Origin: Azonexus fungiphilus
GTDB lineage: Bacteria; Pseudomonadota; Gammaproteobacteria; Burkholderiales; Rhodocyclaceae
Length of the DNA stretch: 64,000 nucleotides
Direction of reading: 5' to 3'
Assembly: GCF_003634965.1 (NCBI RefSeq)
Contig: NZ_RBXP01000016.1
Coordinates: 42,935 to 106,934 of the forward strand
The stretch's first letter is position 1. Each line of letters starts with the position of its first letter. Positions 1-19,937 of this stretch are shown one piece after another. The notes under the pieces are model-generated. The model worked only from the letters and a program-made list of their open reading frames with translations, was not told the origin of the DNA and did not search any database. A program made the position numbers and the translations under genes.

Positions 1-472
1 CGACAGCAGCGTGAACCACCGCCCCCAGCCGTACCAGCGTGATGTCGAAACCGAACCAGGCGCGCCAGATGAGCAGACCCGACACCGTCATCAGCAGCAT
101 GCACACGGCCAGCGCCCAGAACATCACCTTCTGCCCGCCGTTGTACTTGCCCTGCTCCGGCATGTCGTGGTCGTTGCCGTCGACCATGTTCTTCGCCTTC
201 GCCAGCCATTCCTTGTCGGCCGGCGTCATCTTGTTCAGATGCTTGAAGCGGAAGAACATGACGACAAAGCCCAGTGCCATGATCGCCCCGAGGTAGGGAT
301 GAATGATCCGGGCCCACACCGGCCCGCCGAACAGCTGCGTCAGCGGGAAGAACGCCGGGTGGAAGAAGGCCAGCCCGGAGAGCGCCAGCAGGATGAAGCT
401 GATGCCGACCAGCCAGTGGTTGGCCCGTTCCGACGCGGTATAGCGCTTGAGGTCTTTCGGGTCGCGGATCAT
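1..472 (-). CDS. fdnI: Formate dehydrogenase gamma subunit (cytochrome b), first copy, cut by window edge
   Basis: Membrane cytochrome b556 subunit that anchors respiratory formate dehydrogenase and passes electrons from the beta subunit to quinone. Only the first 157 codons are in the window; the complete copy at 6473-7093 has 206 residues, so about 50 C-terminal residues are missing. Hydrophobic segments lie near residues 20-40, 53-75 and 113-135, with the His in the RANHW motif near residue 18 as a likely haem ligand. The ATG at 472 overlaps the stop of the beta gene by four bases (ATGA), so the two are translationally coupled. The part beyond residue 71 is almost identical in DNA to the second copy, while the first part is clearly diverged, which suggests gene conversion. 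Confidence 0.9.
4..256. repeat. Near-identical direct repeat, copy A (in first fdnI)
   Basis: Bases 4-256 match 6625-6877 in the same orientation with one visible mismatch (G at 101, A at 6722). To the right of 256 the two gamma genes differ at many third positions, and the flanking beta and alpha genes are also diverged. The tract continues off the left edge of the window, so its full length is unknown. The abrupt boundary fits recent gene conversion between paralogues. Confidence 0.85.
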
Positions 473-1365
473 TTCGCTTCCTCCTTGTCTTCACGTTCGA
501 TCTCGTCCTCGGTCTCCTTCGAGACCTCGTTCGGCCCCTTGGTCACGTAGTGGAACAGGCTGCCCAGCGCGACACCGGCGAGGGCCAGCGTCGCCAGCGG
601 CTTGGCGAAGCCCTTCCACAGCGCGACCAGCGGGCTGATCGACGGATTGGCAGGCAGGCCGGCGTAGAGGTCGGGCTTGTCGGCGTGGTGCAGCACGTAC
701 ATCACGTGGGTGCCGCCCACCCCTTGCGGGTCGTACAAGCCGGCCTGGTCGTAGCCGCGTTCCTTGAGGTCGGCGACACGCTTGGCAGCGTAATCCTTCA
801 TGTCCTCCTTCGAACCGAACTGGATGGCGCCGGTCGGGCACGCCTTGACGCAGGCCGGCGCCTGGTTGACCGCAACCCGGTCGGAACACAGCGAGCACTT
901 GTAGGCCTTGCTGTCTTCCTTGGAGATGCGCGGAACGTTGAACGGACAGCCGGTGACGCAGTAGCCGCAGCCGATGCAGTTTTCCTGGTGGAAATCGACG
1001 ATGCCGTTGCTGTACTGGATGATCGCGCCGGGCGACGGGCAGGCCTTTAGGCAGCCCGGATCGGCGCAATGCATGCAGCCATCCTTGCGGATCAGCCACT
1101 CGAGCTTGTTGTTCTGCTCGACCTCGGTGAAGCGCATCACCGTCCACGACTTCGCCGTCAGGTCCATCGGGTTGTCGTACACACCGTGGCAGTTGCCGAC
1201 TTCGTCGCGGATGTCATTCCACTCCGAGCAGGCAACCTGGCAGGCCTTGCAGCCGATGCAGGCGGATACGTCGATGAGCTTGGCGATCTCGATGGTTTCC
1301 CGGACTTGCGTCGAGGGCGTGGTCGTCGCGGAGCGCTGTTTGATGTCTAGCGATTGCAGTGCCAT
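469..1365 (-). CDS. fdxH: Formate dehydrogenase beta subunit (four [4Fe-4S] clusters), first copy
   Basis: Iron-sulfur subunit, 298 residues, carrying electrons from the molybdenum or tungsten site of the alpha subunit to the membrane cytochrome. Sixteen cysteines form four ferredoxin-type groups: C36/C39/C42/C46, C97/C100/C105/C109, C130/C133/C136/C140 and C157/C160/C172/C176. One hydrophobic helix near residues 246-270 is the expected membrane anchor, with the short acidic tail on the cytoplasmic side by analogy with E. coli FdnH. It lies 12 bases downstream of the alpha gene and overlaps the gamma gene by four bases. The subunit type is certain; assignment as FdnH- rather than FdoH-like is not possible from sequence alone. 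Confidence 0.95.
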
Positions 1366-1377
1366 GTCAGCTCTCCC

Positions 1378-4300
1378 TTACGCTTTCTCGATGTTGACCA
1401 GGAACGCCTTGTACTCTGGCGTCTGCGTATTGGCGTCACCCACGAACGGGGTCAGGGTGTTGGTGATGAAGCCAGGCTTCGTCGCCCCCTTGAAACCGTA
1501 GTGGATCGGGATGCCGACGGTATGCACCTTCTTGCCGTCCACATCGAGCGCCTTGATGCGCTTGGTCACCACCGCCACGCCCTTGATGAAGCCGCGGTTG
1601 GAGCGGATCTTCACCTTGTCGCCGGCAACGATGCCCTTTTCCTTCGCCAGTTCCTCGCCGATTTCGACAAACTGTTCCGGCTGCATGATCGCGTTGATCC
1701 TGCTCTGCTTGGTCCAGTAGTGGAAATGCTCGGTCAGGCGGTAGGTGGTCGCCACGTACGGGAAGTCCTTGGCCTTGCCGAACGCCTCCATGTCACCCTT
1801 GTACACGCGGGCGGCCGGATTGCTGAGCGCCTTCGGGTTGTTCGGGTGCATCGGGTTGGCGTCGAGCGGGGTCTCGAACGGCTCGTAGTGCTCAGGGAAA
1901 GGGCCTTCGTTCATCAGGCCGAGGCTGAACAGGCGCCCGACGCCTTCACCGGTCATGATGAAGGGCATGACGTTCTGTTCCGGCGCGGCATCCGGACGCA
2001 TGTCGGGGATGTCGTTGCCGCCCCACTTGTCGCCCAGCCACTTGAGCACGGTCCGCTTCGCATCCCACGGCTTGCCGGCGAGGTCCGCCGAGGCGCGGTT
2101 GTACAGGATGCGCCGGTTGACCGGCCAGGCGAAGCCCCAGTTCAAGGTCTGGCCGAGGCCGGACGGATCGCTGTTGTCACGCCGCGCCGAGTTGTTGCCG
2201 GCCTGCGACCAGACACCACAATAGATCCAGTTGCCGCAGGTGGTCGACCCGTCGTCGCGCAGCATGGCGAAGCTCGGCAGTTGATCGCCGGCCTTGACCA
2301 GCACCTTGGTCGGATCCTTCGGATCGGTGACGTCGGCCAGCGCCTTGCCGTTGTACTCCATCATCAGCTCTTCCGGCGACGGCTTGCCCGGGATCCGGTA
2401 AGCCCAGGTCAGCTTCTGGATCGGCTCGGCGTAGGCACCGCCATCCTTGGCATACATCTCCTTGAGCCTGAGGAAGAGGCCGGCCAGGATTTCGGTATCG
2501 TCCTTGGCATCGCCCGGACCTTCCACCGCCTTCCAGCGCCACTGGATGACGCGCCCGGAATTGGTGAAGCTGCCGGTCGTTTCGGCAAACAGCGTGGTCG
2601 GCAGACGAAACACCTCGGTCTGGATTTCCGCCGGATTGACCTCGTTGAACTCGCCATGCGGCTTCCAGAACTCGGAGGTATCGGTGGCCAGCGGATCGAT
2701 CACGACCATGTACTTCAGCTTGGCCAGGGCATCGCCGACCTTCTTCTTGTTGGCGACGGAGGCCAGCGGGTTGAAGCCCTGACAGAAGAAGCCGTTGATC
2801 TTGCCCTGGTACATCTGGTCGAAAATCGACAGCACGTCGGAAGCACCGGCCAGCTTGGGCATGAAGTCGTAAGCGAAGCCGTTTTCCTTGGTTGCCGCAT
2901 CGCCCCACCAGGCCTTGTGCAGGCTGACGTACCACTTCGACAGGTTCTGGCCGAAGTTCATCTGGCCGGGACGCAGCAACTTCGGCGTCTTCTTGTCGAG
3001 GAAGGTCTTGAGGTCGGGTTCGGCATCGCTCGGCACCGCCAGGTAACCGGGCAGGTTCTGGGCATAGAGCGCGAAGTCGGTGATGCCCTGGACGTTGGCG
3101 TGGCCGCGCAGCGCGTTGATGCCGCCACCCGCCATGCCCATGTTGCCGAGCAGCAACTGGATGATCGCCATGCAGCGGATGTTCTGCGAACCAACCGAGT
3201 GCTCGGTCCAGCCCAGCGCGTACAGGCTGGTCATGGTCCGGTCCGGCGCCGCCGTTTCGGCGATGTATTCGCACACCTTGAGGAAGGCTTCCTTCGGCGT
3301 GCCACAGACCTTGGCCACCATCTCCGGCGTGTAGCGGGAATAGTGCGTCTTCAGCAGCTGGAAGGCACAGCGCGGGTCCTGCAGCGTCTGGTCGACCTTG
3401 ACGAAGCCGTCCTCGCCCATCTGGTAGCTCCAGTTGGCCTTGTCGTAGCTGCGCTTTTCCTCGTTGTAACCGGTAAAGATGCCGTCCTCGAGCGAGAAGC
3501 CTTCGTTGATCAGGAAGGACGCGTTGGTATACGCCTTCACGTACTCGTGATGGATCTTGTCGTTGGTCAGCAGGTAGTTGATGACGCCGCCGAGGAAGGC
3601 GATGTCGGAACCGGGGCGCACGGGGGCATAGAAGTCGGCCACCGACGCGGTGCGGTTGAAGCGCGGGTCGACGACCACGAGCTTGGCCTTGCGATTCTTC
3701 TTGGCTTCGATCGCCCACTTGAAGCCGCAGGGATGCGCTTCAGCGGGGTTGCCACCCATGACGAAAATCAGATCGGCGTTCTTGATGTCCACCCAGTGGT
3801 TGGTCATCGAACCACGCCCAAAACTCGGAGCCAGACTGGCCACCGTGGGAGCGTGTCAAATGCGCGCCTGAGTGTCGATCGAGGTCATCCCCAACGCGCG
3901 AAGCATCTTCACGGTCAGGTAGCCGGTCTCGTTCTGTGCTGCCGACGAGGCGAGGAAGCCGGTCGTCGTCCAGCGGTTGACGGTCACGCCGTCCTTGTTC
4001 TGGGCCACGAAGTTGGCATCGCGGTCGGCCTTCATGTGCTTGGCGATGCGGTCGAGGGCTTCGTTCCAAGAAATCTTCTTCCATTCGCTGGCACCCGCTT
4101 CGCGGACTTCCGGCCACTTCAGGCGGTTCTGGCTCTGGATCATGTCGCGCAGGCCGGCGCCCTTCGGGCACAGGGTTCCGCGATTGACCGGATTGTCCGG
4201 ATCGCCTTCGATATGAATGATCTCGCTCTGGGAGTTCTTGGATTTATCCCCGGTCGAGTAGATCAGCACGCCGCAGGACACCGAGCAATACGGGCAGATA

Positions 4301-4443
4301 TTGCGTGTTTCGGTGGCGCGGGCGAGCTTGAAGGTGCGTACTTCCGCAAGGGCTGCATTCGGCGAGAAACCCATCAGTGCGATGGACGACCCTCCCAGCC
4401 CGGCGGAGCAGACCTTGAAGAACTGCCGCCTGTTCATGTTCAT
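1378..4443 (-). CDS. fdnG: Formate dehydrogenase alpha subunit, selenocysteine-containing (TGA read through at codon 196)
   Basis: Catalytic subunit of a periplasmic formate dehydrogenase, formate to CO2, with a bis-pterin guanine dinucleotide cofactor. It reads as 1021 residues if the in-frame TGA at 3856-3858 is decoded as selenocysteine; without that it would appear as two fragments of 195 and about 820 residues. The N-terminus has a twin-arginine (Tat) motif, NRRQFF at residues 4-9, and a cleavable hydrophobic segment. C50, C53, C57 and C92 bind the [4Fe-4S] cluster, followed by a conserved Lys at 94. Sec196-His197 matches the active-site pair of E. coli FdnG, and the Cys paralogue at 8009-11056 has Cys196-His197 at the same position. 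Reading frame and homology continue unbroken on both sides of the TGA. The upstream sigma54 promoter suggests regulator-dependent expression. Confidence 0.93.
3826..3845 (-). other. Bacterial SECIS-like hairpin for selenocysteine insertion
   Basis: In the mRNA, ten bases after the UGA, the sequence CGG-U-GGCC-AGUCU-GGCU-CCG folds into a three-pair lower stem, a bulged U, a four-pair upper stem (one G-U) and an AGUCU loop. A bulged U and a GU in the apical loop are the SelB-recognition features known from E. coli fdhF, and E. coli fdnG has the same AGUCU loop. The matching region of the Cys paralogue does not need this element. Confidence 0.8.
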
Positions 4444-4487: not shown

Positions 4488-4503
4488 TGCAACGATCATG
4501 CCA
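4488..4503 (-). promoter_or_regulatory. Sigma54 (-24/-12) promoter of fdnG copy 1
   Basis: On the minus strand the sequence is TGGCATGATCGTTGCA, one change from the TGGCACG-N4-TTGCA consensus, with the standard GG to GC spacing. The predicted start is near 4477, giving a leader of about 34 bases before the fdnG ATG at 4443. A Shine-Dalgarno-like AGGAGG stretch (reading on the minus strand) lies just before the ATG. Confidence 0.8.
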
Positions 4504-4557: not shown

Positions 4558-4605
4558 GTGGGACATTTTGTCCGTTGACCGTTAAACCCGGACAAAATGT
4601 CCCAC
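4558..4605. promoter_or_regulatory. Paired palindromic upstream activator sites for fdnG copy 1
   Basis: Two 13-base palindromes, GGACATTTTGTCC at 4561-4573 and GGACAAAATGTCC at 4590-4602, lie head to head in a larger perfect inverted repeat with 16-base arms (4558-4573 and 4590-4605). Their centres are 29 bases apart and lie about 90 and 119 bases upstream of the predicted sigma54 start. The same GGACA-N3-TGTCC motif appears upstream of the second operon, which points to a shared activator, most likely the regulator encoded at 12705-14078 (inference). Confidence 0.75.
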
Positions 4606-4631: not shown

Positions 4632-5501
4632 TCAGCCGGTCAGCAGGAAGGGATTCGGCGCGCCTCTGGCGTAGCCCTGTTCGCCGACCAGGACGTCGAG
4701 CGCCAGTGTCGCCAGATCGTCGGCGAGCGGCTCGACGACCAGGTCCTTGTCCTGGAAATAGAGCTTGCTGTAGCCCTTGCAGTGTTCGCAGGCCTCGGCG
4801 CGGACCGCCGGAAAGGCGTCCTCGATGCCGAGGTAGGCAACCACGCCCGGATCGTCGCACAGCGTGCAGCGGGCACGGACCGCGTTCCAGCGCGTCGCGC
4901 ACAGGCTGCATTCCTGATAGCGGGCGCCGCCCCGGCCCTGCCCGGCGAAGACGATGCTGCCGAGCGGCGCGCTACCGCAGCACGGACAATGCCCGCGTTC
5001 GGCCAGCAAGACCTTGCCGGTCGGCACGTCCAGCCCCTGGGCAAAGCGTGTCCACACCACCTGCAGCGCCGCGGCGAGCACCGCCTCGGTCGGCGACTGC
5101 AAGGCGGCCTCGGCCTCGCCCGCAAGCAAGGCGCGCACTGCCGGCAGACTGGCCTGTGCCGACCCCAGGTCGGCGACGGCGACGCCGGCAGCAGCCATGG
5201 CGCTGGCCAGTTGCGGATAAATTGCCGGCCACGCCGCCTCGATCTCTGCCTCGCGCCCGGCTGACACGGCCTGCTGCCAGGCGAAACCGGCCGGTAAGCG
5301 CAGGCCGAGGTCGCCCAGTGCATCGAACGCCGTCTGCTGCGCGTCGCACAGCAGCGCCAGCCGATTCAGCCAGTCGGCCGCCGGCGCGCTGCCGGCCAGC
5401 GTGCGCAGGCGGCTGGCCCGGCGGGCAAAGAGGCTGGTTCCCGGACGCAGCAGGCTCGGGTAATCGTCGGCGGAAGGCAGGGATTGCGGGGGGAATTGCA
5501 T
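4632..5501 (-). CDS. fdhE: Formate dehydrogenase accessory protein FdhE
   Basis: Cytoplasmic rubredoxin-like protein of 289 residues needed for maturation of respiratory formate dehydrogenases; E. coli FdhE binds iron and interacts with the catalytic subunits before Tat export. Four CxxC pairs are visible at C172/C175, C198/C201, C212/C215 and C238/C241, the hallmark of the family. It begins 13 bases after fdhD ends, so the two are probably co-transcribed, and it sits between the two structural operons, consistent with serving both. The stop at 4632 is followed within 30 bases by the paired palindromes that control the next operon. Confidence 0.92.
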   Translation of the reverse strand: MQFPPQSLPSADDYPSLLRPGTSLFARRASRLRTLAGSAPAADWLNRLALLCDAQQTAFDALGDLGLRLPAGFAWQQAVSAGREAEIEAAWPAIYPQLASAMAAAGVAVADLGSAQASLPAVRALLAGEAEAALQSPTEAVLAAALQVVWTRFAQGLDVPTGKVLLAERGHCPCCGSAPLGSIVFAGQGRGGARYQECSLCATRWNAVRARCTLCDDPGVVAYLGIEDAFPAVRAEACEHCKGYSKLYFQDKDLVVEPLADDLATLALDVLVGEQGYARGAPNPFLLTG

Positions 5502-5514
5502 GTATTTCTCTCGC

Positions 5515-6396
5515 TTACATCAGGATGGCCGGCGCCGGCGCGGCAGTATCGCCGGCAAGGTATTCGCCGCCAGCATAAACGACCAGCCCGTCGGCACGTG
5601 CGAAACCGGCCAGCAGCAAGCCGACGGCACGAGCCTGGCGGACCGCCAGCGCCGTCGGCGCAGACACCGCAACCAGTGCCGGCAAGCCGGCGCTCGCGGT
5701 TTTCTGGACCATCTCGTAGGAGGCCCGGCTGGTGACCACGACGAAACCGTTTCCATCGCCTGCCGCACCGCTGCGCGACAGTGCGCCGATCAGCTTGTCG
5801 AGTGCGTTGTGCCGTCCGACATCCTCGCGCACGCAGACGATGTTGCCCTGCGCATCGGCCCAAGCTGCCGCATGTGCCGAGCCGCAACGCTGGCGCATGA
5901 CCTGGCAGTGCGGCAACTGGCGCAGCGCTTCGCGGATGGCGGCCGGCGAAACAGCAGCAGCCCCGCCGGGCAGGACTTGCGGCATCGGCGGCAGGCCGGC
6001 CAGGCTCTCGACGCCGCACAATCCGCAGCCGGTGCGGCCGGCCAGCTGGCGACGGCGTTCCTTGAGGCCGGCAAAACGTTCGCTGGCGATGCTCAGGTCG
6101 ACCGTGATGCCCTCGCAGGCGACATTGATCTCGATGTCGTACAACTCGCCGGCACGACCGAGGATGCCTTCCGAGAGGCTGAAGCCGAGCGCGAAATCCT
6201 CGAGGTCGGCCGGTGAGGCGAGCATCACCGCATGCGAGATGCCGTTATAGACGAGCGCGACCGGGACTTCCTCGATCAGGTCGTCGCTGGCTGCCGACCA
6301 GTGCTCGCCGCGCAGGCGGTGCACCCCGGACGATACGATCGTCGGCTGGGTCTCGTCCGAGCCGCTGTCGGCGACGCTTGGGTCAGGCAGGTTCAT
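5515..6396 (-). CDS. fdhD: Formate dehydrogenase accessory sulfurtransferase FdhD
   Basis: Sulfur carrier that moves sulfur from IscS to the molybdenum cofactor of formate dehydrogenase, essential for activity in E. coli. With the ATG at 6396 it has 293 residues. The conserved GCGLCG motif places the reactive cysteines at C124 and C127, and the family motifs REDVGRHNALDKLIG and SRASYEMV are present. The frame stays open upstream into the gamma gene, but no homology is seen before the chosen ATG. No strong ribosome site is visible. A hairpin terminator lies immediately upstream, so fdhDE may rely on read-through or a weak promoter of its own. Confidence 0.92.
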   Translation of the reverse strand: MNLPDPSVADSGSDETQPTIVSSGVHRLRGEHWSAASDDLIEEVPVALVYNGISHAVMLASPADLEDFALGFSLSEGILGRAGELYDIEINVACEGITVDLSIASERFAGLKERRRQLAGRTGCGLCGVESLAGLPPMPQVLPGGAAAVSPAAIREALRQLPHCQVMRQRCGSAHAAAWADAQGNIVCVREDVGRHNALDKLIGALSRSGAAGDGNGFVVVTSRASYEMVQKTASAGLPALVAVSAPTALAVRQARAVGLLLAGFARADGLVVYAGGEYLAGDTAAPAPAILM

Positions 6397-6472: not shown

Positions 6473-7093
6473 TTACTTGCCGGTGACCTGACGGTACCAG
6501 CCGCGATGATGCTGCTTGGCCCAGGCGCGGGTGACCGTGCCGTACCACATGGCACGGATCGTTCCCTTGACCCAGATCGCGGCATAGACGTGCACCATGA
6601 TCAGGCCGATCATCACCGCCCCGGCAGCAGCGTGAACCACCGCCCCCAGCCGTACCAGCGTGATGTCGAAACCGAACCAGGCGCGCCAGATGAGCAGACC
6701 CGACACCGTCATCAGCAGCATACACACGGCCAGCGCCCAGAACATCACCTTCTGCCCGCCGTTGTACTTGCCCTGCTCCGGCATGTCGTGGTCGTTGCCG
6801 TCGACCATGTTCTTCGCCTTCGCCAGCCATTCCTTGTCGGCCGGCGTCATCTTGTTCAGATGCTTGAAGCGGAAGAAGATGATCAGGAAAGCCAGTGCCA
6901 TCACCACCCCGATGTAAGGGTGCAGGATGCGCGCCCAGACCGGGCCGCCGAAGAACTGCGTCAGCGGGAAGAAGGCCGGGTGGAAGAAGGCCAGCCCGGA
7001 CAGCGCCAGGAGGATGAAGCTGATGCCGATCAGCCAGTGGTTGGCCCGTTCCGACGCGTTGTAGCGCTTGAGGTCCTTGGGATCGCGGATCAT
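6473..7093 (-). CDS. fdnI: Formate dehydrogenase gamma subunit (cytochrome b), second copy
   Basis: Complete 206-residue membrane cytochrome b subunit. Four hydrophobic segments can be seen near residues 20-40, 53-75, 113-135 and 150-170. Histidines in RANHW near residue 18, in HPYIG in the second segment and in HVYAA in the fourth are the expected haem b and quinone-site ligands of FdnI-type proteins. The ATG at 7093 overlaps the beta stop by four bases. Long open sequence upstream in this frame belongs to the beta gene in another frame and is not coding here. Bases 6625-6877 are almost identical to the first gamma copy. Confidence 0.93.
6625..6877. repeat. Near-identical direct repeat, copy B (in second fdnI)
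   Basis: Partner of 4-256, same orientation, offset 6621 bases, one visible mismatch. Divergence begins at 6878 and rises to many differences per 100 bases over the rest of the gene. Left of 6625 the comparison runs off the window. Confidence 0.85.
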
Positions 7094-7998
7094 TTTGCTG
7101 CCTCCTTGTCTTCGGCTTCGATTTCTTCCTCGATTTCGCGGGAAACCTCGTTCGGCCCCTTGGTCACGTAGTGGAACAGGCTGCCCAGCGCGACACCGGC
7201 CAGCGCCAGCGTCGCCAGCGGCTTGGTGACGCCTTTCCAGATCGAGACCAGCGGGCTGATTGCCGGATTCGCCGGCAAGCCGCTGTACAGCTCGGGCCGG
7301 TCGGCATGGTGCAGCACGTACATGACGTGGGTGCCGCCCACCCCCTGCGGATCGTACAGGCCGGCATTGGCGAAGCCGCGTTCCTTGAGGTCCTTGACCC
7401 GGTCGTCGGCGACCAGCTTCATGTCTTCCTTGGTCCCGAACTGGATGGCGCCGGTCGGGCAGGTCTTGACGCAGGACGGCTCCTGGCCGATGGCCAGACG
7501 GTCCGAACACAGCGAGCACTTGTAGGCCTTGTGGTCGTCCTTGTTGATCCGCGGCACGTTGAACGGGCAGCCGGTGACGCAATAGCCGCAACCGATGCAA
7601 TGCTCGGACTGGAAATCGACGACGCCGTTGGCGTACTGGATGATCGCGCCGGGCGCCGGGCAGGATTTCAGGCAACCGGGGTCGGCGCAATGCATGCAGC
7701 CGTCCTTGCGGATTAGCCACTGCAGGCGGCCGCCCTCGTCCTGGTGCTCGGCGAAACGCATCACCGTCCAGCTCTTGGCGGTGAGGTCGACCGGGTTGTC
7801 GTAGATGCCGTGGTTGTGGCCGACTTCGTCGCGGATGTCGTTCCATTCCGAGCAGGCGACCTGGCAGCCCTTGCAGCCGATGCACACGGTAACGTCAATC
7901 AGCTTGGCGACCTCCAGCTTGTGGTCGCGCACTTGCGGCGGCGGCGTCAGGCTCGACGTGGCCGAACGCCGGATGATGTCTTGGGATTGCATGGACAT
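7090..7998 (-). CDS. fdxH: Formate dehydrogenase beta subunit (four [4Fe-4S] clusters), second copy
   Basis: Iron-sulfur electron-transfer subunit of 302 residues, paralogous to the copy at 469-1365 and collinear with it. Cysteine groups are at C39/C42/C45/C49, C101/C104/C109/C113, C134/C137/C140/C144 and C161/C164/C176/C180, enough for four cubane clusters. A single C-terminal hydrophobic helix near residues 250-273 should anchor it in the membrane. It starts 10 bases after the alpha stop and overlaps gamma by four bases. The N-terminal 25 residues and the region just before the second cluster group differ most from the first copy. Confidence 0.95.
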
Positions 7999-8008
7999 GA
8001 TGGTTTCC

Positions 8009-11000
8009 TCAAGCCTTTTCGATGTTGACCAGGAAGGCCTTGTATTCAGGCGTGTGGGTGTTGGCGTCGCCGACGCGCGGGCTCAGCGTGTTGGCCAGGT
8101 AGCCCTTGCGCGCCGTGCCCTCGAAACCCCAGTGCACCGGGATGCCGACCTGCTCGACTTCCTGCCCCGCCACCTGCAGCGTCATCACGCGCTTGGTCAC
8201 CACCGCCTTGCCGCGGATGTGACCGCGCTTGCTCGATACCTTGATCAGGTCGCCGGCCTTGATGCCCTTGCTCGCCGCCAGCTTCTCGCTGATCTCGACG
8301 AACTGCTCGGGCTGGACGATGGCGTTGAGCAGCGAATGCTTGGTCCAGTGGCGGAACATCTCGGTGATCGAGTACGAGGTCGCGACGTAGGGGAATTCCT
8401 CGCGCGAACCGAAAGTCGGCTTGTCGTCCTTGAAGATGCGCGCCACCGGGCTCTTGCCGCTGCCGGAATGCAGCGGGTTGGCCGGGATCGGGCTTTCCTC
8501 GGGTTCGTAGTGCTCGGGGAAGGGCCCATCGGTCATCGCGCCCATCGAGAACAGGTGGCCGACGCCGTCCTGGAGCATGATGAACGGACTGACACCGCTG
8601 CCCGGCGCGGCCGTCGGCGGATAGTCGGGGACGTCGGCGCCACTCCACTTGACGCCATCCCAGTGCAGGAACTTGCGCTTCGGATCCCACGGCTTGCCGG
8701 ACGGGTCGGCCGAGGCGCGGTTGTACAGCAGGCGGCGGTTGGCCGGCCAGGCAAAGCCCCAGCCCGGCGTGTTGCCGAGACCGGTATCGGTATTGTCGCG
8801 GCGGGCCATCATGTTGCCAGCCTGCGTCCACTGGCCGGTGTAGATCCAGCACAGGCTGGTCGTCGTGCCGTCGTCGCGCAGGTGGGCGAAGCTCGACAGC
8901 AGCTCGCCCTTTTTCGCAATCTGGTTGCCCTTGTCGTCGAACAGGTCGGCCAGCGCGTAACCGTTGAGTTGCTTGGCGACTTCTTCCGGATGCGGGTCCT
9001 TGGGATCGTGGTAGTGCCAGTCCACGTTCATCAGCGGCTCGGGGCAGACGCCGCCTTCCTTGGCGTAAAGTTCGCGCAGCTTCATCAGCAGGGTGCCGAG
9101 GAAGCGGCCGTCGTGCCAGGCTTCGTGCGGCGGCGTCTGTGCCGCCCAGTGCCATTGCAGCCAGCGGCCGGAGTTGGCGATCGAACCGTTCTCCTCGGCG
9201 AAGCAGGACGACGGCAGGCGGAACACCGTGGTCTGGATGTCGGTCGGATTGACGTTGTTGAACTCGCCGTGGTTCTGCCAGAACGACGAGGTTTCGGTCT
9301 GCAGCGGGTCCATCACCACCAGGTACTTGAGCTTGGCCAGGCCTTCGCGCACCTTGCCCGACGACGCGGCGGCGGCGATCACGTTGAAGCCCTGGATGAT
9401 GTAGCCGTTGGCCTTGCCCTTGTGCATCTGCTCGACGAAGGCCATCACGTCGTAGCTGCGGTCCCACTTGGGCAGCCAGTCGTAGCCGAAGTTGTTCTCG
9501 GGCGTGGCCTTGTCGCCGTACATCCCCTTGAGGAAGCTGACCATGAACTTGGGCGTGTTCTTCCAGAAGTTCACCTGCTTGTCGACCAGGGTCTTCGGCG
9601 TGCGCTGTTCGAGATAGGCTTGCAGCGTTTCCTGGTTCTCGTTGGGCAGCGTCAGGTAGCCCGGCAACATGGTGGTGAGCACGCCCAGGTCGGTGAAGCC
9701 CTGGACGTTGGAGTGGCCGCGCAGGGCATTGATGCCGCCGCCGGGCATGCCGATGTTGCCGAGCAGCAGCTGGACGATGGCCGAGGCGCGGATCATCTGC
9801 GAGCCGCCGACGTGGTGGGTCCAGCCGAGCGCGTAGAGGATGCTGGTGGTCTTGTCCGGGACGCAGGTCGAGGCGAGTTTCTCGCAGACGTGCAGGAAGT
9901 CTTCCTTGGGCGTGCCACAGATGCTGCTGACCATCTCCGGCGTGTAGCGCTCGACGTGCTTCTTGAGCAGGTTGAAGACACAGCGCGGATGCTGCAGCGT
10001 CTCGTCGCGCAGCGCGTAGCCGTCGGCGCCCAGCTCGTAGGCCCAGGAGGAGCGGTCGTAGCTGCGTTTCTCGGCGTCATAGCCGCTGAACAGGCCATCC
10101 TCGAACTTGTAGTCCTCGCGCACGATGAGCGGCGCGTTGGTGTAGGCCTTGACGTATTCGTGCTGGATCTTGTCGTTGGTCAGCAGGTAGTGAGCAACAC
10201 CGAGCAGGAACGCCGAATCGGCACCGGCACGGATCGGCGAATAGAAATCGGCGACGGCGGCGGTGCGGTTGAAGCGCGGATCGACGACCATCATGTAGGC
10301 CTTGTTGCGCACCTTGGCCTCGACCGCCCACTTGAAACCGACCGGGTGAGCCTCGGCCGGGTTGCCGCCCATCACCAGGATGACGTTGGCGTTCTTGATG
10401 TCGACCCAGTTGTTGGTCATCGCGCCGCGCCCGAAGGACGGCGCCAGGCCGGCCACCGAGGGGCCGTGGCAGAGGCGGGCCTGGTTCTCCAGGTGCACCA
10501 TGCCGAGCGCGCGGGCGAACTTGACGTCGAGGATGCCGGTTTCGTTGCTCGCCGCCGACGAGCCGAGGAAGCCGGTGGTCGTCCAGCGATTGACCAGTTG
10601 TCCCTTGTCGTTCTTCTCGATGAAGTTGGCGTCGCGGTCGTCCTTCATCAGGCGGGCGATGCGATCGAGCGCCTCTTCCCAGGAAATGCGCTTCCATTCG
10701 TTGCTGCCGGCCTCGCGCACTTCCGGGTATTTCAGGCGCTGCGGGCTGTGGATGAAGTCGAGCACACCGGCCCCCTTCGGGCACAGCGAGCCACGGCTGA
10801 CCGGGTGATCCGGGTCGCCTTCGACGTGGAAGATCTTCTTCTTCGCGTTCTTGGCGCCGTCGCCCAGGCTGTACATCAGAATGCCGCAGCCGACCGAGCA
10901 ATAGGTGCAGTTGTTGCGCGTCTCGGTGGCGCGGAACAACTTGTACTGGCGCACGTCGGCCTGGGCGGCGGTCGGCGTCATGCCGAGCGCGGCAAGGCCG

Positions 11001-11056
11001 GAACTGCTCAGACTGGCCGCCGAAATCTTGAAAAACTGCCGTCGATTGATGTTCAT
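8009..11056 (-). CDS. fdnG: Formate dehydrogenase alpha subunit, cysteine-containing paralogue
   Basis: Catalytic molybdopterin subunit of 1015 residues, a close paralogue of the selenoprotein at 1378-4443 but with Cys196 in place of selenocysteine, followed by His197. A Tat signal (NRRQFF, residues 4-9) directs folded export. C50, C53, C57 and C92 bind the [4Fe-4S] cluster. A Cys enzyme needs no selenium but is usually slower than its Sec homologue (family knowledge), so this copy may serve selenium-poor or low-demand conditions. It heads its own fdnG-fdxH-fdnI operon and has a consensus sigma54 promoter with an upstream palindrome like that of copy 1. Confidence 0.95.
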
Positions 11057-11104: not shown

Positions 11105-11120
11105 GGCAACGAACGTGCCA
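11105..11120 (-). promoter_or_regulatory. Sigma54 (-24/-12) promoter of fdnG copy 2
   Basis: Minus-strand sequence TGGCACGTTCGTTGCC matches the TGGCACG-N4-TTGC consensus exactly. Predicted start near 11094, 38 bases before the ATG. The promoter lies inside an inverted repeat, CCTTGGCA (11101-11108) and TGCCAAGG (11116-11123), which could be a second protein site or chance. Confidence 0.85.
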
Positions 11121-11188: not shown

Positions 11189-11233
11189 GGACATAATGTC
11201 CAGGCACCGGCCCGCCCGTCGGACAAAATGGGA
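11189..11233. promoter_or_regulatory. Upstream activator sites for fdnG copy 2
   Basis: A perfect GGACATAATGTCC palindrome at 11189-11201 and a degenerate partner beginning GGACAAAATGGGA at 11221-11233, centres 32 bases apart, lie about 101 and 133 bases upstream of the predicted sigma54 start. The motif matches the pair at 4561-4602. The second site almost abuts the stop codon of the helicase gene at 11238. Confidence 0.7.
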
Positions 11234-12704: not shown

Positions 12705-14074
<1,370 letters not shown>

Positions 14075-14078
<4 letters not shown>

Positions 14079-16072
14079 GCGATGGCGCGCCCCGCCAGTC
14101 GATCCGCAGGCGCCTGATCGGCCTGGCGCTGCTGCCGCTCGGCGTCGTCCTGCCGCTGCTGCTGGTGACGCTGGTGAACTGGGGCAGCGGCTTTCTCGAC
14201 CGCCTGCTGGTAGCCAAGGTCGGCGCCGACCTGGTCAGCGCCAACAGCTACTACGAACGGGTCAGCGCCGGCATCGGCACTGCCGTCGAAGGCCTGGCCG
14301 GCTCGGCGCGGCTGGCCACCCGGCTCGACATGCCGCAAGCGCAATTGCAGGACTGGCTGGGCGAGGAACGCCAGCGCCTGCAACTCGATTTCCTGCTCCT
14401 CCTCGACCGCGACGCTTGCGCCCACGGCCACCCCAAGGCGCCTTGCCTGGGCAACTGGCCGGTCGTCGCCGATGCCCTCAGGGGCAAGGCCGATACCGTC
14501 AACGACGTCTTCAGCGCCGGCCAACTGGCGGCGATCGACCCGGCGCTCGCCGAGCGCGCACGCACGCCGCTGCTGCCGACCCGCAACGCGCAACCCAGCC
14601 AGGCCGCCGTCGAGGAACGCGGCCTGGTCGTGCACAGCGCCGCCCCGGTCCATGACGCCCAGGGCCGCCTGCTCGGCGTGCTGGCGGGTGGCGTGCTGCT
14701 CAACGGCAACCTCGAATTCATCGACCACCTCAACGAAATCGTCTATCCCGACGACAAGCTGCTCGACAGCGTCGGCACCGCGACGCTGTTCCTCGGCGAC
14801 GTGCGCATCGCCACCAATGTCCGCCTGTTCGAGGGCGAGCGGGCGATCGGCACGCGCGTCTCGCAGGCGGTGCGCGATACCGTGCTCGGCCGCGGCGAAA
14901 CCTGGCTAGCCCGCGCCTTCGTCGTCCAGGACTGGTACTACTCCGGCTACCGGCCGCTGCTCGACAGCCGCGGCGAGCGGGTCGGCATGCTCTACGTCGG
15001 CTTCCTCGAAACGCCTTTCGTCGCCGCCAAGAAATCGGCCTTCATCGGCATCGTCGCGCTCTTCGCGCTGGCCATGCTGATCGCCGCGATCTTCGCGGTG
15101 CTCTGGGCGCGCCGCATCTTCCGCCCAATCGAGAAGATGCACGCGACGATGAACGAAATCGAGGCCGGCCGCACCGACGCCCGCGTCGGTGCGGTCGCCA
15201 ACGCCGACGAAATCGGCGAACTGGCCCGCCACTTCGACCGCCTCCTCGAAAGCCAGCAGGCCCAGGCGGAAGCCCTGCAACGCTGGGGCGAATCGCTCGA
15301 CGGCAAGGTCGCCCAGCGCACCGCCGAACTGCAGGAGGCGCTGGCCAACCTGCGCTCGACCCAGGGCAAGCTGATCACCAACGAGAAAATGGCCGCCATC
15401 GGCCAGTTGACCGCCGGTGTCGCCCACGAGATCAACAACCCGATCGCCGTCATCCAGGGCAACCTCGAACTCGCCCGCGAACTGCTCGGCGCGCAGGCCA
15501 AGCCGGTCGAGCCGGAATTCCGGCTGATCCTCGACCAGGTGCACCGCATCCGCCTGATCGTCACCAAGCTGCTGCAGTTCGCCCGCCCGCAGGAGTACGT
15601 CGGCTACCTCGAGCCGGTCAATGCCAGCCAGCTGATCCACGACTGCCTGCTGCTGGTCGGCCACCTGCTGCGCAAGGGCAACGTCGCCATCGAACAGGAA
15701 ATCGCCACCAACCGGCTGGTCACCTGCAACAAGAACGAACTGCAGCAGGTGATGATCAACCTGCTCGCCAACGCCATCCAGGCCATGCCCGACGGCGGCC
15801 TGCTCCGCCTGCGCGCCGAGGAATGGGACGAGGCCGACATGCCGATCGGCCTGCGCCTGAGCGTTGCCGACTCCGGTCCGGGCATCCCCGAAAGCGAACG
15901 CGAGCACCTGTTCGAGCCTTTCTTCACCGCCCACAAACCGGGCGGCCACGGCCTCGGCCTGTGGGTCAGCAAGTCGCTGGTCGAACGCTACGACGGGCGC
16001 ATCACCGTTGATTGCCCGGACAGCGGCGGCGCCGTGTTCACCGTCTGGCTGCGTTGCGAACCGCTCGGCTGA
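14075..16072 (+). CDS. Membrane sensor histidine kinase, partner of the 12705-14078 regulator
   Basis: A 665-residue kinase starting with GTG at 14075, overlapping the regulator stop. One membrane helix near residues 14-34 and a second near 322-346 enclose a large extracytoplasmic sensor domain of about 285 residues that looks like a Cache-type fold (inferred from size and position). A HAMP linker and a coiled coil follow, then the H box with His451 in a VAHEINNP motif, and an ATPase domain with N box (NLLANAIQAM), G1 box DSGPGIP and G2 box GHGLGL. The sensed signal is not known; formate or another one-carbon or anion signal would fit the neighbourhood but is a guess. Confidence 0.92.
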
Positions 16073-16132
16073 GCGACTGTTTTTGCAGGGAAAACTTGGC
16101 TTTCGGGCCGTCGACCGCTACACTTCGCCTCC

Positions 16133-16197
16133 TGCCGAGGAGCGCTGCGACCATTTCACTGTATGGCCAGGCTCGGCAACGATCAACGGCGCTCGCA
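16133..16197 (+). promoter_or_regulatory. S-adenosylhomocysteine (SAH) riboswitch upstream of metH
   Basis: The leader contains the conserved SAH-riboswitch blocks in order: CCGAGGAGCGCTGCGAC at about 16135-16151, GGCCAGGCTCGGCAA at about 16165-16179, and AACGGCGCTC at 16186-16194. CCGAG pairs with CTCGG and GAGCGC with GGCGCTC, as in the known aptamer. SAH riboswitches switch on genes of SAH recycling, and metH is a typical target. The start of metH lies 78 bases further on. Confidence 0.88.
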
Positions 16198-16226
16198 AAC
16201 CCTGTTTCCCGCCGGTTTGCAGCGCC
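16188..16226 (+). promoter_or_regulatory. Probable expression-platform hairpin of the SAH riboswitch
   Basis: GGCGCT-C-GCAAACC (16188-16201) can pair with GGTTTGC-AGCGCC (16214-16226) with only one bulged C, giving 13 base pairs. The left arm reuses the GGCGCTC strand of the aptamer, so the two structures exclude each other. That suits an ON switch: SAH binding would stop this hairpin from forming. No clean U run follows directly (GTTCGCTTTT), so attenuation may not be classic intrinsic termination. Confidence 0.55.

Positions 16227-16274: not shown

Positions 16275-19937
<3,663 letters not shown>

Follow-up and report, generated by a model that had tools for sequence, protein, structure and literature searches.

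The locus described here raises two questions, namely whether a stop codon inside a gene for a formate dehydrogenase alpha subunit is read as selenocysteine (Sec), and how the resulting enzyme may be regulated together with a cysteine (Cys) isozyme encoded beside it. Both genes lie in a stretch of 64,000 nucleotides from Azonexus fungiphilus, which is referred to as the window. By plain ORF calling, the first gene, fdnG(Sec), was split on the minus strand into a piece of 195 aa (4443-3856) and a piece of 821 aa (3843-1378). When the TGA was read through, a single frame of 1021 residues was obtained, with no other stop. The first-pass annotation expected automated annotation to cut the gene in two as well, which is its weak point: current annotation pipelines have rules for Sec-containing FdnG.

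The in-frame TGA of fdnG

The features of the Sec operon are listed below.

1378..4443, minus strand: fdnG(Sec), formate dehydrogenase N alpha subunit, 1021 aa with a single in-frame TGA
3856..3858, minus strand: TGA codon 196, almost certainly read as selenocysteine (frame, alignment, conservation)
3803..3861, minus strand: SECIS element, Rfam RF01989 SECIS_3 (covariance-model match)
3826..3845, minus strand: apical SECIS hairpin with bulged U 3842 and AGUCU loop (folding, alignment)
469..1365, minus strand: fdnH, iron-sulphur subunit (TIGR01582, 473.8 bits, cut-off 334.7)
1..472, minus strand: start of fdnI, cytochrome b subunit, which runs left of the window over a 93-N gap

The first-pass annotation had taken the TGA at 3856-3858 for a Sec codon standing where a paralogue has its catalytic Cys196, with homology and frame continuing on both sides; the position, the frame and the homology were confirmed by alignment. 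The read-through product aligned end to end with the alpha subunit of E. coli formate dehydrogenase N (1kqf_A, 1479.5 bits), with the TGA opposite residue 196, printed as X in that chain. It also matched NCBIfam TIGR01553 over its full length (1522.5 bits, cut-off 814.2). In the paralogue at 11056-8009 (60% identity overall), the same column is Cys196. Among the matches listed, the closest named isolate by fdnG(Sec) was Dechloromonas agitata (92%). A twin-arginine leader was recognized by eye in the product, and the [4Fe-4S] cysteines Cys50, 53, 57 and 92 are all present (positions according to the accessible part of PMC3636253). UGA-coded Sec196 is already established for E. coli FdnG, and the fdnGHI system (PDB 1KQF) likewise has the same Fe-S cysteines and a three-subunit operon, as described in that part of the paper (PMC3636253). 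Here, fdnH and fdnI follow fdnG(Sec), fdnI being interrupted by an assembly gap.

The conservation of the TGA was evaluated in three samples. In a search of named genomes led by the Sec sequence, the best 80 of at least 580 confirmed stretches were kept, and a TGA occupied the equivalent of codon 196 in 80/80 loci. This sample is biased, as ranking by similarity to the Sec query favours Sec forms. A less biased view was given by a search of 121 genomes drawn from the family, led by the Cys sequence, which returned 37 fdnG matches in 35 genomes (E <= 1e-150); exactly one TGA was found in 30 of these copies and no stop in the other 7. Both fdnG types occurred together in two of the 121 genomes, G000 and G094. 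Of the 109 rows in the tree, 103 had the TGA and 6 had Cys. The six Cys rows form one group (support 93) nested among the Sec rows under midpoint rooting. The tree omits L098 (Cys) and L103 (Sec), which the motif filter missed, as well as L093, a copy of the window gene, and those Cys-led matches that were given no locus.

The SECIS element and the sel genes

In E. coli fdnG, a SECIS element follows the UGA. A hairpin with a bulged U and an AGUCU loop had likewise been proposed ten bases downstream of the TGA here, and it was found at 3845-3826 as CGG-U-GGCC-AGUCU-GGCU-CCG. Folding the bases after the TGA gave the hairpin as described, with an energy no better than that of shuffled sequences (z -0.51 for 59 nt; z -1.42 and -1.31 for shorter pieces, none significant). 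Fold energy was dropped as a proof of the SECIS, and the covariance model was used instead, with the Cys copy as control. Rfam gave two matches above threshold in the 64-kb window. SECIS_3 was among them, matching over its full length at 3861-3803, just past the UGA, and scoring 69.7 bits where the gathering threshold is 63 (E 2.7e-14 for the whole 64 kb); nothing notable differs from the RF01989 model.

Because much of the element doubles as coding sequence, the Cys paralogue is a useful control. Its equivalent stretch, 10416-10474, reached 44.9 bits with SECIS_3, below 63 (E 9.3e-10 in a 121-base search), and the AGUCU loop has become GGCCU. As the Cys copy keeps 44.9 bits, the conservation of the SECIS must partly reflect coding constraint. 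The degenerate element is consistent with a descent of the Cys paralogue from a Sec form, and equally with shared coding constraint.

An alignment of 37 stretches (34 distinct), comprising the window sequence plus 36 loci hand-picked from the 80 for spread, was then considered. Standard pairs filled 91.0% of the pair cells, and the value dropped to 29-52% when the partner was slid by 1-3 columns. The apical helix was 99.6% paired, with two-sided changes at 3 of its 7 pairs, and the lower helix paired imperfectly (84.3%). Two-sided changes at 4 pairs were not unusual, since 138 of 500 shuffles had at least as many; none of the 500 attained the covariation score. It is the covariance model, not fold energy alone, that establishes the identity of the SECIS.

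The genome was also searched for the Sec machinery, the absence of which would speak against a Sec codon. All four genes were present above their cut-offs, namely selA (549.8 bits, cut-off 267.9), selB (447.9 bits, cut-off 242.25), the tRNA-Sec gene selC (71.3 bits, cut-off 47; also called by ARAGORN, with anticodon tca) and selD (431.2 bits, cut-off 125), the last lying outside the fdn cluster. The Sec interpretation is therefore supported. Immediately downstream of the Sec operon, left of the window, the same strand carries selA, selB, selC and a further fdhE. About 9 bases separate the stop codon of selB from the start of selC (L009:12049-12150), which has the same orientation, so that co-transcription of the two is possible. 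Between selA and selB (L009:14021-15989) are a flavoprotein gene resembling FCSD/sulphide-quinone reductase and an FMN-reductase-like gene. Homologues of one or both occur within the same cluster in L013, L014, L016 and L017, and a role in selenium supply is possible.

We consider it about 97% probable that the product of fdnG is a selenoprotein and serves as the catalytic subunit in a membrane-bound formate dehydrogenase N; the in-frame stop is almost certainly read as Sec, like that of E. coli. Directly seen for this gene are the Sec codon with its conservation among relatives, a SECIS match that has decayed in the Cys paralogue, and the four sel genes. By analogy with E. coli, SelB carrying Sec-tRNA(Sec) would bind the SECIS hairpin ten bases past UGA196, and Sec would be inserted at the Mo/W cofactor of a catalytically active FdnG. 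Translation would end at residue 195 when selenium is lacking.

It is very improbable that the UGA is instead decoded by near-cognate suppression, with Trp or Cys at residue 196, or that the second piece is translated alone. An ORF starting from GTG 3843 could indeed be translated by itself, but this fragment would have neither the Fe-S cysteines nor the leader, and suppression is unnecessary with a SECIS and a full sel set. A pseudogene or sequencing error, in which a Cys codon (TGC or TGT, like the TGC at codon 196 of the paralogue) would recently have turned into a stop, can be dismissed for practical purposes, given the TGA in the Sec-led relatives (80/80, the best 80 of at least 580), the Cys-led copies (30/37) and the tree rows (103/109, the other 6 being one Cys group), the lack of a further stop in 1021 codons, the SECIS match, and the sel genes within the same cluster. 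The Sec-fdnG itself is supported as an ordinary, further member of the Sec-containing formate dehydrogenase N family. The Sec codon is hence one more well-supported case in a known enzyme family, and one that can be found by reading the raw sequence.

A Cys isozyme operon in tandem

The second structural operon and the accessory genes comprise the following features.

4632..5501, minus strand: fdhE, accessory gene between the two structural operons (TIGR01562, 191.4 bits, cut-off 187.65)
5515..6396, minus strand: fdhD, sulphurtransferase (TIGR00129, 198.7 bits, cut-off 140.9)
6473..7093, minus strand: fdnI of the Cys operon (TIGR01583, 176.5 bits, cut-off 115.85)
7090..7998, minus strand: fdnH of the Cys operon (TIGR01582, 464.9 bits)
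8009..11056, minus strand: fdnG(Cys), with Cys196 as TGC at 10471-10469 and a degenerate stretch at the SECIS position

Read along the minus strand, the genes run fdnG(Cys)-fdnH-fdnI-fdhD-fdhE, followed by fdnG(Sec)-fdnH-fdnI-fdhE-selA-flavoprotein-FMN reductase-selB-selC. Unlike E. coli fdnGHI, the Sec operon thus shares a cluster with fdhE, selA, selB and selC, and has a Cys isozyme operon in tandem. A second fdnG of either type was found in none of the fetched flanks (<=10 kb, many shorter) of the 80 named loci; the tandem Sec/Cys arrangement therefore looks unusual within that sample. An origin of the Cys fdnG by recent local duplication was rejected, as the Cys copies group apart from the Sec copy of the window (support 93).

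The fdnI genes show a different relationship from the fdnG genes. The Sec- and Cys-operon copies of fdnI are 98.8% identical over 249 bp, and a 150-bp step from near window position 210 is 99% identical between the operons. The DNA of fdnG(Sec) and fdnG(Cys) is about 55-78% identical per 150-bp step. Near-identical fdnI beside diverged fdnG therefore suggests recent gene conversion. The 93-N gap in the Sec-operon fdnI (L009:18843-18935; contig C5:42842-42934) abuts window position 1 and is flanked by a 102-bp exact overlap, which suggests that the gap is an assembly artefact.

A proposed shared operator and the neighbouring regulator

The only part of the locus that might interest a specialist is a candidate operator shared by the Sec and Cys operons. 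The relevant features are as follows.

4488..4503, minus strand: sigma-54-type promoter TGGCATGATCGTTGCA of the Sec operon, 0 mismatches to TGGCAYRNNNNTTGCW
4561-4573 and 4590-4602, minus strand: two GGACA-www-TGTCC dyads upstream of the Sec operon
11105..11120, minus strand: sigma-54-type promoter TGGCACGTTCGTTGCC of the Cys operon, 1 mismatch
11189..11201, minus strand: GGACATTATGTCC dyad upstream of the Cys operon
12705..14078, plus strand: NtrC-type response regulator with receiver, sigma-54 interaction and Fis HTH domains (PF00072, PF00158, PF02954)
14075..16072, plus strand: histidine kinase with sCache_3_3, HAMP, HisKA and HATPase_c domains, proposed partner of the regulator

A -24/-12 promoter with one or more upstream dyads was found at both operons. 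About 32 bases further upstream of the GGACATTATGTCC dyad of the Cys operon, a half-site that deviates at 3 positions was also recognized by eye. GGACA-nnn-TGTCC occurs at six places in the 3.55-Mb genome, and the core is all A/T in only these three; a reversed control pattern of the dyad had zero occurrences in the same 3.55 Mb. In G094, a genome of a second genus, the Sec and Cys fdnG genes lie on different contigs. All-A/T dyads number exactly two in this genome and lie 140 and 156 bp in front of the two fdnG genes; each is followed by a one-mismatch sigma-54-type promoter, and the Sec gene has an additional dyad with C in the core. Across the 121 genomes, the all-A/T dyad was found at 42 sites in 29 genomes. 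Seventeen of these sites are within 250 bp upstream of an fdnG and 25 are not near one. Many fdnG genes carry no strict dyad. The dyads of the Cys copies L095 and L096 have G or C in the core, and the upstream scan gave no dyad at the Cys copies L094, L097 and L099.

The genes for the regulator and the kinase are separated from the Cys operon by an RhlE-type RNA helicase gene. At 10 of the 80 loci, the flank fetched around the Sec gene contained a regulator homologue (>=45% identity). For the 75 loci with enough upstream sequence (5 were skipped), strict dyad and regulator occurred together at 7, the regulator alone at 3, the dyad alone at 3 and neither at 62. The dyad was thus found at 7/10 loci with the regulator versus 3/65 without it (Fisher p 6e-6, a value inflated by relatedness). 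Meanwhile, a hand tally over the 121 genomes, with E cut-offs of 1e-150 for fdnG and 1e-120 for the regulator, placed the regulator in 22/35 FdnG-bearing versus 22/86 other genomes (Fisher p 1.5e-4, uncorrected for relatedness).

Two dyad-bearing genomes with no fdnG at the cut-off were inspected, namely G049 and G062, the latter from the genus of the window. In both, the dyad precedes a formate-dehydrogenase-like cluster with a polyferredoxin gene. The G049 cluster also has a TorD-like gene, with regulator and kinase genes adjacent; the G062 regulator is on a different contig from the dyad-bearing cluster. Since the catalytic subunits are weakly matched (488 bits against a curated formate dehydrogenase cut-off of 666 in G049, and a 29% match to FdnG in G062), formate dehydrogenase function is a likely reading only. 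The dyads and the regulator point to a formate-dehydrogenase regulon, and both operons are probably activated by the nearby pair of NtrC-type regulator and Cache histidine kinase, perhaps in response to formate or a related signal.

The shared dyads could also belong to another regulator than the neighbouring response regulator. We regard this as rather unlikely, given the co-occurrence of regulator and dyad (7/10 versus 3/65) and the 17 of 42 sites within 250 bp upstream of an fdnG, even though 3 of the 75 loci have the dyad but no regulator homologue within the flank that was fetched, the strict dyad is missing in 3 of the 10 regulator-bearing loci, and 25 of the 42 dyads are not near an fdnG. 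The genome G112, from the genus of the window, bears on both sides, as its regulator lies about 9 kb from fdnG but its sole other dyad site is about 100 bp or less upstream of the regulator gene. This site (L177:4939) would fit autoregulation.

Sigma-54 control of such operons has precedents. The accessible text of PMC2725144 likewise describes a sigma-54 (RpoN) promoter on the Sec-fdnG operon of Geobacter sulfurreducens, with an enhancer-binding-protein gene upstream of fdnG, just as the window has a candidate activator gene nearby; a Sec/Cys pair or a dyad is not described in that text. Formate dehydrogenases are also among the predicted sigma-54-regulated genes in the consulted part of a survey (PMC12316311). 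Our literature search, made by title and abstract start with subscription journals mostly missing, returned nothing on a shared dyad operator or on Sec/Cys fdnG pairs in the family. HrsS, which we take to be the name of a selenium-responsive regulator, was not found among the matches listed in the search.

The common dyad and promoter, with a regulator and kinase nearby, suggest that both isozymes may therefore switch on together, selenium deciding at translation. We tentatively propose, at somewhat less than even odds, that a dedicated sigma-54 two-component system, maybe formate-sensing, would activate both the Sec and the Cys operon through one operator, and that selenium would pick between them by UGA read-through or termination and not by transcription. 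Judged from sequence patterns, it is doubtful that the Cys operon is instead a fallback for selenium limitation, with reciprocal selenium-dependent transcription. Treponema primitia, which likewise has Sec and Cys formate dehydrogenase isozymes (fdhF-Sec and fdhF-Cys) in one genome, offers a known pair with opposite responses to selenium (available text of PMC6288185). However, its FdhF belongs to another enzyme class, its transcripts oppose each other under selenium whereas the window has one dyad type, and there, too, only the transcript downstream of the SECIS responded (same part of PMC6288185). The same dyad and promoter type stand at both operons, here and in G094, so the same direction of regulation is predicted. 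If one operator does serve both operons as proposed, the tandem pair would be a natural single-strain test of the benefit of selenium to a formate-oxidising bacterium, with both isozymes compared within the same regulatory background.

Elsewhere in the window, an SAH riboswitch aptamer was found on the plus strand at 16131-16201 (64.4 bits, gathering threshold 37), with a long plus-strand ORF, 16275-19937, downstream of it.
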